Source: Spartobacteria bacterium (GTDB lineage: Bacteria > Verrucomicrobiota > Verrucomicrobiia > Chthoniobacterales > UBA10450). From it: a stretch of DNA of 64,000 bases. The DNA is taken from NCBI GenBank assembly GCA_003169975.1, contig PNAA01000025.1, positions 75,700-139,699 on the forward strand, in the 5' to 3' direction. The position numbers were made by a program, and so were the translations under genes. The notes under the pieces are model-generated. The model had not been told where the DNA came from. It saw only the letters and a program-made list of their open reading frames with translations, and did not search any database. Of this stretch, positions 36,203 through 58,442 are shown piece by piece. Numbering within the stretch: the stretch's first letter is position 1; each line of letters begins with the position of its first letter.

Positions 36203-37095
36203 ATGACGTTGCACACGATTCATCTGATCATCGTCTTCGCGCTCGTGATCGGCGCCTTTGTCGCGTTCCTCCGCGAATGGCTTCCGCCCGGTCTGGTCGC
36301 GCTCAGCACGCTCGCGATTCTCCTCGTGAGCGGGACGATTGGCACGGAAGACGTACGTAAGGTCTTCAGCAACAGCGCGCCGGTCACCATCGGTTGCATG
36401 TTTGTCCTGAGCGCGGCGCTGGAAAGAACCGGCGCGATCGATGCGCTCGCCCGGATTTTCCTGCGCCTGGCAGGGACGAGCGAACTGCGGGCCCTGCTCG
36501 CGCTCGCGGTTTTTACGGTTCCGATTTCGGCTTTCATGAACAAGGCGGCGAGGGTTTCGCGCTGTGGCAACAGCTTGCGACCGATGAAAAAGAGATAAAC
36601 GGCGCCAATCGCCGCGTAGATGAGATCGGCGGCGGGATGGCGCGCCAGTTCCTGATGCAGGCGGTGATCAGCCGCGATTCGCCGCTCGTCGGGAAGACGT
36701 TCGCCGAGACGCCGCTCGTTAGGCTGCGCGAGGCGCGCATCATTGATGTGACCCGCCACGGCGGGCCTGTAGCCACGCTCTCGGTCACCTATTTCGTCGC
36801 GATGGTGCTGACGGAGTTCATCGGCAACAACGCGGTCGCCGTGCTCCTGACTCCGATCACATTTGAGATCGCGGCCAGCCTCGGATTGGATGCACGGCCT
36901 TTTGCCGTCGCGGTCATGTTTGGCAGCAGCGCGAGTTTCGCCACACCGATTGGTTATCAAACCAATACCTACGTCTTTGGCGCCGGCGGCTACCGCTTCG
37001 TTGATTTTCCGCGGGTTGGCGTCCCGCTCAATCTCATCCTCTGGGTCGCGGCCAGTATCCTCATTCCCATCTTTTGGCCTTTCGTGGCGAAGTAG
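36203..37095 (+). pseudogene. SLC13/DASS-type transporter pseudogene with inverted segment
   Basis: The forward N-terminal part (36203-36541) encodes three membrane segments of an SLC13 family permease, ending in the family block FTVPISAFMN. The sequence that should follow is missing. Instead, about 36537-36625 encodes on the opposite strand DLIYAAIGAVYLFFIGRKLL-PQRETLAALF, the piece that normally precedes the first TrkA-C domain. The forward strand then resumes in another frame with a TrkA-C fragment (SRDSPLVGKTFAETPLVRLREARIIDV) and the last membrane helices (NNAVAVLLTPI, SASFATPIGYQTN). Perhaps 200-250 residues are lost. It cannot make a functional transporter. Confidence 0.85.
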
Positions 37096-56038: not shown

Positions 56039-56893
56039 ATGCTTTTCCGAAACAAATGGCGAGACCCAGACCGGAACATCATCGCGTTCACGACCCACAA
56101 GGCCGGCTCGATGGTGCTCCATCGCGTCCTGAAGGACGTCTGCGAGCTGAACCGCATCCGTTACTATTCGCCTAACGAGAGCCGGACGATGCTCCCGTTC
56201 GACCGGATGTTTGCGGGCCGCGATTTCATCGCGAAGAAACGCGGCTGCTTCGGCCCGATCCGTTTTTTCGTGCCGAGCAAGGCGATCGCCGAGGCCAGCG
56301 TCATCCTCCACCTGCGCGATCCGCGCGATGTGCTCACCTCGATGTTTTACTCCTACTGCTACATGCACGCGGGCGAGATCGACGCCCACACCGGCTATCG
56401 CAAGGAAGTGGCGGAGGCGGGGATCGACCATTTCGTGCTCGATATGGTGGCCGAGCCCTTCTACGCCTACCGCGGCGATTACGGGATCGGCTCGCGCTAC
56501 AAGGAGCATGTCGGCACCGTGCTCGACCGCTACGAGCGCTACCTCACGGAGCTGCTCGGCCGGCCCAACACAACCGTCGTCTCCTACGAGGAGATGGTGC
56601 TGGCCTTCCCTTCCTGGCTGGAAAAGATCGTCAGCGCTTTCGCTTTGCCCGATCCCGACGAGACCCGCGCCGTCGTCGCGGCGCGCCACGCGAACAGCGT
56701 CGCGGCGGGCGAGGAGGATGTGTGGTCGCACAAACGCAAAGTGACGCCCGGCGATCATCGGGAAAAGTTGCAGGCGGAAACCATCCGCGAGCTGGACAAG
56801 ATATTCGCCCCGGTGCTCGACAAGCTCGGCTACTCCGGCCGCGCCTACGCGGAGACCGGCATCCCGGTCCCGCATTGTAGCCGGGGTCGGTGA
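56039..56893 (+). CDS. Sulfotransferase family protein with repeat-derived C-terminus
   Basis: 284 residues from the ATG at 56039. An ATG at 55985 is in frame but would leave only 8 bp to the divergent gene. The 5'-phosphosulfate loop is FTTHKAGSMVLHRVL (residues about 18-32), and the 3'-phosphate motif is LHLRDPRDVLTSMFYSYCYM. It would move sulfate from PAPS to an unknown acceptor, commonly a carbohydrate or cell-surface molecule. The last six codons and the stop come from the palindromic repeat at 56875-56946, so the original C-terminus has been replaced or extended. The catalytic core appears intact. Confidence 0.85.
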   Translation: MLFRNKWRDPDRNIIAFTTHKAGSMVLHRVLKDVCELNRIRYYSPNESRTMLPFDRMFAGRDFIAKKRGCFGPIRFFVPSKAIAEASVILHLRDPRDVLTSMFYSYCYMHAGEIDAHTGYRKEVAEAGIDHFVLDMVAEPFYAYRGDYGIGSRYKEHVGTVLDRYERYLTELLGRPNTTVVSYEEMVLAFPSWLEKIVSAFALPDPDETRAVVAARHANSVAAGEEDVWSHKRKVTPGDHREKLQAETIRELDKIFAPVLDKLGYSGRAYAETGIPVPHCSRGR

Positions 56894-56946
56894 CCCCGGA
56901 CGGGATCGACGTCTTTTCTCCCCGGGGTCACCGACCCCGGCTACAA
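56875..56946. repeat. TTGTAGCCGGGG palindromic element with perfect 25-bp arms
   Basis: Arms 56875-56899 and 56922-56946 are exact reverse complements (TTGTAGCCGGGGTCGGTGAC...). Each arm also contains its own GGGGTC/GACCCC dyad. The spacer is 22 bp. The sulfotransferase TGA (56891-56893) lies in the left arm. Confidence 0.85.
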
Positions 56947-57101: not shown

Positions 57102-57821
57102 ATGCCACTCGGACGCACGCCTCTTTTTCGTAAGCTGAGCCAGATGGTGCGGCAGGCGCGTTGGCTGAATGAAAATCCGCAACACCGCACTTTTTTCTTC
57201 GAGGCGCGGGAAGCGGCGCGGGTTTCGCGGCGCGATTTCGTGCGCATGCTTGGCGGGGCTGGGCTGCTGACGGCAGCCGGAGGTCTCGCGCCGCGGCCGG
57301 CAAAGGGATCAACGAGCCTGGGCGCGGCTGGCGGCGAACCGGTGGCGATCATCGGCGCCGTGGTGGCTGGGCTAACGGCGGCTTGTCGTTTACTGCAAGC
57401 CGGCGTGCCTTGCGAAATCTTCGAAGGGAGCGAGCGAATCGGCGGTCGCATGTTGACGAAGTATGACTTCAACAAGGATGCGATGTTTTGTGAGCTCGGC
57501 GGTGAGCTGGTCGACTCGAATCACGCCGCCCTGATCGCGCTGGCGGGCGAACTCGGAGTGGGAATTCAGGAACTCAAAGGCGAGGATAAAGGGGTCGATC
57601 TCTACTTTTTCGGCGGCAAACATTACCGCGACGAGCAGCTCATCCCGCTCTTTCAACCGTTCGCGCAGAAGCTCGCCGCAGATTTTGACGGCATTTACGA
57701 TGCCGAACAGAATTTTACGGAGAAGGCCGCCAGATTCGACCGTGTAAGCCACACGCAACATGTCGACCACCCATTTCTCCACTCCCTTGCCCGTCTCCGC
57801 GAGATACGCCGCGAGACTCAT
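57102..57821 (+). pseudogene. Flavin monoamine oxidase pseudogene with inverted segment
   Basis: The forward part (57102 to about 57735) encodes a Tat-type leader (SRRDFVRMLGGAGLLTAAGG). An FAD-binding region follows with IIGAVVAGLTAACRL, where the middle Gly of GxGxxG is replaced by Val, then IFEGSERIGGRM and the LGGELVDSNH block. At the family's next expected block the coding strand flips: 57821 down to about 57732 on the minus strand reads MSLAAYLAETGKGVEKWVVD, then MLRVAYTVES. This is the segment that should continue the forward frame. About half of the enzyme is missing. It is a non-functional remnant. Confidence 0.82.
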
Positions 57822-57829
57822 CCGATCGA

Positions 57830-58442
57830 GATACGGAGGAAATCAGAGATATCTTCGCTCCTTTCGTACAGGGTTCTTCGTCCATTCACCAACAGTTCGG
57901 CGGCCTGGGCCTGGAGTTATCGATTTGCAAGAAGCTCATGGAGGCCCACGGGGGATCTATTTCCGTCCAAAGCGCCGGCTTGAATCTTGGCTCCAGCTTC
58001 ACGCTCCGATTTCGCTGCGCCGGCGTGGAAGCTGCGATTCCGCTTCCTCAGCGGGAAACGCTGACCGACCCGCTGAGCATCCTCCTGGTCGAGGACCATG
58101 AGGATTCGCGCGACTGTTTGTTCCGGCTGCTGCAGATGCGGGGCCATGACGTCATCGAAGCCGGGAATGGCGCGGAAGCGCTGCAATTCGCCCAAAGCTG
58201 CAGTTTCGATCTGCTGATCACCGATATCAGCCTTCCCGACGTGAATGGATTGGCATTATTGGGAGAAGTTAAGAGAAAAGCAGCCGGGCCTCGAAGGCGT
58301 CACGATGAGCGGCTACGCGATGCCGCTCGATGTGGTAAAAAGCAAGGAAGCCAGTTACCTCGCACATCTCGCCAAACCGGTGAGTCTGGCCCAACTGGAC
58401 GAGGCCATTCGGAAAGTTGTTCATCGGACCCGAATGCAGCCG
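57830..58442 (+). pseudogene. Hybrid histidine kinase fragment (ATPase end plus frameshifted receiver)
   Basis: The fragment begins inside the kinase ATPase domain (EIRDIFAPFVQGSSSIHQQF) and continues with G2 box FGGLGLELSICKKLMEAHGG. A receiver domain follows (ILLVEDHEDSRDCLF, phosphoacceptor Asp in LLITDISLPDVNG). Around 58255-58270 the frame shifts: the rest of the receiver (REKQPGLEGVTMSGYAMPLD, conserved Lys in LAKPVSLAQLDEAI) is in the next frame and ends at 58442. There is no start and no H-box. It is joined directly to the amine oxidase remnant. Confidence 0.82.

Follow-up and report, generated by a model that had tools for sequence, protein, structure and literature searches.

A flavin amine oxidase gene in the window, which is the 64,000-nucleotide stretch of Spartobacteria DNA analysed here (G000:C40:75700-139699), carries a segment of about 80-90 bp that has been replaced in place by its own reverse complement, and the distal edge of this segment runs directly into the remnant of a kinase gene. 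The gene has thus switched orientation in place, lacks its C-terminus, is fused to the kinase remnant and has lost a glycine of the FAD motif, and its orthologs elsewhere are intact. We consider it likeliest (probability about 0.6) that this is the recent scar of a loss of function in a dispensable gene, left by one aberrant replication or repair event. We regard the lesion as most likely genuine but of an ordinary kind; another gene nearby provides a second example, and no evidence points to a special process. The genome is a 4.47 Mb draft in 59 contigs, and the closest relatives of the oxidase in named records belong to metagenome-assembled genomes of Spartobacteria and Verrucomicrobia.

The forward part of the oxidase matches the N-terminal FAD-binding domain of PF01593 (profile positions 1-102) with 53.2 bits against a curated cut-off of 19.8 (E 4e-14). 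Its N-terminus is 63-75% identical to the intact orthologs, which form an uninterrupted open frame of 544-608 aa in each of four relatives. A full-length PF01593 domain with an intact GxGxxG motif was not found in the gene, as the C-terminal ~300 residues are gone and a glycine of the motif is now valine (IIGAVVAGL vs IIGAG-AGL in the orthologs). Judged by its residues, the oxidase part is otherwise barely decayed, with changes at 7 of 115 conserved sites, compared with 3-5 in three of the orthologs and 20 in that of G002; such slight decay fits a young event and an assembly error alike.

The inverted block lies on the minus strand, where LDRMSLAAYLAETGKGVEKWVVDMLRVAYT supplies exactly the next ~30 residues of the oxidase, aligned in place, and 26 of 30 residues are identical to the best ortholog, that of G022. 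The protein score of this block is 144, against maxima of 46 in 1000 base shuffles and 41 in antisense windows of the same gene. At the DNA level, the forward match to the orthologs stops at 57727-57750, varying by ortholog and overlapping the flipped part, and the minus strand from ~57830 back to 57730 is 77-78% identical to G022 and G028 over ~100 bp. A separate whole-genome DNA search placed the two halves of the query on opposite strands in both G022 and G010; the match changes strand at query 128-143 and stops at 230-231. Therefore, from the minus-strand score and the opposite-strand DNA matches, the in-place inversion is real in the sequence as assembled.

When 57743-57822 is computationally flipped, the frame is unbroken over both joints and reads continuously (...ARFDRMSLAAYLAETGKGVEKWVVDMLRVAYTIE) with family residues across them, up to ...EKAARFDRMSLAAYLAETGKGVEKWVVDMLRVAYTIE, after which the family is lost; alignment to the G022 protein then scores 947, up from 817. 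Random 80-bp flips raised this score in 18 of 500 cases (highest 910), and these presumably overlap the same segment. The inverted segment may reach about 57737-57828, its edges being ambiguous by microhomology, so that its total length is ~80-92 bp. The preliminary description had read such a block on the minus strand, and its alignment with amine oxidases is borne out by these comparisons. The residues 'VES', which it counted as belonging to the family, arise where reading continues beyond the joint, on the complement of the forward gene; the restored segment truly ends in ...AYTIE, where two orthologs have TIEYG and others LIEYG and VIEYG.

An amine oxidase pseudogene with a simple internal inversion had been proposed. 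The pseudogene and its in-place micro-inversion stand, given the minus-strand block and the effect of the flip, whereas the simple internal inversion does not: the left flank is continuous with the parent gene, and roughly (T)IE is all that is retained on the right ahead of the kinase remnant. The lesion is an inversion with a deletion and fusion, because the C-terminus is missing and the kinase remnant directly abuts, with ~0-10 bp between the inversion end and the fusion joint. The lost C-terminal residues are absent from the genome, in which the search matches two full-length paralogs only. The kinase/regulator remnant is 47% identical to a G010 protein. In a synteny comparison, none of the genes neighbouring the oxidase, the kinase remnant included, adjoins the oxidase in the four relatives.

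Positions of the features of the two interrupted genes within the window
Feature	Position	Strand	Basis
Flavin amine oxidase, N-terminal ~213 residues; intact frame	57102..57739	+	Pfam PF01593, orthologs, residue comparison
Left boundary zone TTCGACCG, codons FDR; imperfect 8-bp arm	57735..57742	+	Flip test; chance-level match to right arm
Inverted segment, 80-bp core, encoding MSLAAYLAETGKGVEKWVVDMLRVAYT, the next block of the oxidase	57743..57822	-	Ortholog alignment, flip test, DNA search
Right boundary zone CGATCGAG; flipped, reads (T)IE, the orthologous next residues; recognisable oxidase ends here	57823..57830	+	Ortholog alignment, flip test
3' remnant of hybrid histidine kinase/response regulator (HATPase_c end and receiver), fused directly to the inversion; frameshift at ~58266-58282	57831..58440	+	Pfam; tblastn in two frames
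SLC13/CitMHS-type transporter (Pfam), residues 1-128, forward	36203..36541	+	Homolog comparison
SLC13 residues 201-228 (28 codons, 84 bp), inverted in place; 129-200 deleted on left side	36541..36624	-	Homolog comparison
SLC13 residues 229-277, then 504-613, forward	36625..37094	+	Homolog comparison

Hairpin-mediated inversion was suggested for this site on the basis of a flanking 9-bp inverted repeat. The repeat is an artefact, a single 9-mer (AGATTCGAC/GTCGAATCT) that was read on both strands: AGATTCGAC has one plus-strand copy near the site (57732), and GTCGAATCT is absent from the plus strand there. The sole genuine candidates for arms are TTCGACCG and CGATCGAG; they agree in 6 of 8 positions, a level that 33% of random sites across the window reach as well. 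The longest perfect arm at the inversion ends is 4 bp, a length reached at 72% of random places, and no long inverted repeats were found at the joints. The local single-strand DNA fold is likewise unremarkable (z -1.15). With arms at chance level, an ordinary fold and an artefactual repeat, hairpin-mediated inversion is without support here.

A second gene in the window with the same type of lesion, also claimed beforehand, was confirmed in the SLC13-type transporter at 36203-37094, where an 84-bp in-place inversion was found and the parts on both strands were recovered. A 216-bp deletion (residues 129-200) abuts one end of this inversion, and a second deletion, in frame and bounded by short direct repeats (CGCnnCGGC), has removed residues 278-503. 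In both genes of the window, one end of the flip rejoins the parent cleanly and the other end is a deletion joint. The flipped SLC13 sequence has at its boundary a hairpin with a 7-bp stem, found at ~1% of random places; the oxidase has no such hairpin, and it was set aside as evidence of mechanism. The homolog in G003, of the same genus (L155, G003:C104:38450-39338), has decayed separately, with frameshifts and a missing N-terminus. Elsewhere in the window, the open-frame list alone gives a tandem run of large MacB/FtsX-like permease genes on the minus strand (6209-30390), with ABC ATPase genes close by.

A recurrent micro-inversion process had been suggested from the two cases. Further cases were sought in 762 kb of this genome (17%), 1.20 Mb of G010 and 0.54 Mb of G003 and G004, together with a few extra loci, with every open frame of 120 aa or longer included. 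Each frame was matched against the DNA of all three genome sets, and opposite-strand pieces of one protein in register were collected. Under strict filters blast carries the forward match on across the flip and no case emerges; under relaxed rules the known cases are recovered, partly since their homologs had been deliberately fetched. Only the two window cases qualified, with no third micro-inversion in the 762 kb of this genome or in 1.7 Mb of its relatives. In a spike-in control with in-silico flips of 84-120 bp in 419 genes, 29-30% were recovered, and 69-71% where a good homolog exists. At the rate of the window (two per 64 kb), ~22 cases would be expected in the other 698 kb, ~6 of them detectable at ~29% per-gene sensitivity, and none was observed. 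Therefore, the genome-wide rate is not that of the window, although a rate several times lower is conceivable, and a widespread recurrent process is not supported. Nor are disrupted genes more numerous here than in the relatives by crude counts of frame-disrupted gene clusters, start-site artefacts included (12 in 0.76 Mb here; 14 in 1.20 Mb and 18 in 0.54 Mb in relatives).

The other survey hits were rejected, as they look like palindromic repeat elements or antisense-shadow frames; L070 was checked residue by residue, and the rest were judged by coordinates, with the same DNA and the same part of the query on both strands. Apparently palindromic repeat elements were the main false positives of the two-strand survey, and L063:13641-13880, L069:11097-11332, L129:8159-8317 and others appear to be such repeats inside predicted frames, matching themselves on both strands. 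Within the window, a 25-bp perfect inverted repeat (TTGTAGCCGGGGTCGGTGACCCCGG...) lies next to a sulfotransferase gene at 56875-56946. Its core GTAGCCGGGGTC has 13 copies in the 762 kb of this genome and none in 1.2 Mb of G010, so that it resembles a dispersed palindromic element specific to the lineage.

In the event that we favour, ~80-90 bp of the oxidase would have been copied in place with the orientation reversed; at the distal edge a jump would have led to the 3' part of the kinase/regulator gene, with the rest of the oxidase and the 5' part of the kinase gene deleted. The route may have been microhomology-mediated break repair, or template switching where a fork had stalled or broken; in such an event the copying strand would move briefly to the opposite strand and then resume downstream. 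This reading is favoured by the frame and family residues that the flip recovers at both joints, by the closeness of the inversion end to the fusion joint, and by the same architecture in SLC13, where the inversion abuts one deletion and a direct-repeat in-frame deletion also occurs. It is favoured too by the loss of the oxidase C-terminus from the genome outside full-length paralogs, by joints free of long inverted repeats, and by reports of this class of mechanism for eukaryotic microinversions. A microhomology-type error of replication or repair is consistent with a deletion joint beside the inversion, with the absence of true repeats and with the short direct repeats that bound SLC13's other deletion; since Ku is encoded in the genome, end joining is a possible maker of the joints instead. 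We infer a joint origin of inversion and deletion through copying or repair, and a product that does not function. Dead genes accumulate deletions, and SLC13 carries one unconnected with its inversion, so a micro-inversion in an already dead gene with a later deletion ending at its edge, or the reverse order, deserves mention as two independent ordinary events; this is unlikely, as in both genes the deletion joint lies directly at one inversion end, which independent events would rarely produce.

Short chimeric joints from library preparation or metagenome assembly would be suggested by the draft state of the genome, by pieces that remain open and little decayed, and by a pair of similar lesions that lie 21 kb from each other on a single contig, with none elsewhere in the sampled sequence. 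Chimeras rarely yield a flip in place that resumes the parent sequence exactly, and the independent frameshift in the kinase remnant, the loss of the FAD-motif glycine and the decayed SLC13 gene of a same-genus relative all speak for genuine gene decay, so that we regard an artefact as rather improbable. It seems very doubtful that repair or replication in this lineage habitually leaves inverted inserts of 80-90 bp, in local clusters, where dispensable genes have deletion joints, which would be a bacterial signature of its own that couples inversion to deletion. Both lesions are most likely neutral micro-inversion-plus-deletion scars of dispensable genes, produced by template switching or by microhomology-mediated repair of breaks. 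If natural, they are two well-resolved examples of a short inversion coupled to a deletion in a soil bacterium, and they leave current models unchanged.

Short inversions inside bacterial coding sequences are reportedly known as intragenic invertons (Chanin et al. 2024, as cited in PMC11868660). The oxidase segment resembles them in being short, intragenic and in place, and its flip restores the frame locally, which could suggest a programmed inversion that switches the gene on and off. However, perfect inverted repeats at its ends do not exceed 4 bp and no recombination sites were found, the rest of the gene is missing so that neither orientation gives a full protein, and the orthologs are in the uninterrupted orientation. 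No recombinase gene was found among the adjacent genes scanned, at ~52.7-63.3 kb only, which comprise a phosphoribosyltransferase, a sulfotransferase, a desaturase, DDAH, TPR, DUF520 and two without family. With no sites found, no recombinase among the scanned neighbours and a truncated gene, the oxidase is hardly a reversible switch, and a programmed inversion is extremely improbable.

In the literature, short inversions are attributed to template switching at short inverted repeats or to microhomology-mediated break-induced replication (PMC8755829; PMC8604942). Such scars are easily missed by pseudogene callers and, in the papers found, are described mainly from eukaryotes; no paper was found that combines microinversion in bacterial genomes with template switching. 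In yeast coding genes, template-switch spacer inversions change 2-5 bp between arms of >9 bp (PMC8604942). The oxidase shares with them an inversion inside a gene, but those lie between inverted repeats, whereas its stretch is ~80 bp long and has no arm of such quality. Human/chimpanzee microinversions (Potapova et al., 2022; PMC8755829) measure 17-33 bp, are pure in most cases and have short inverted repeats at their flanks. The bacterial oxidase flip differs from these in its length of 80-92 bp, its accompanying deletion and its chance-level arms, and is like them a short in-place flip of the kind ascribed to template switching or microhomology-mediated break-induced replication.
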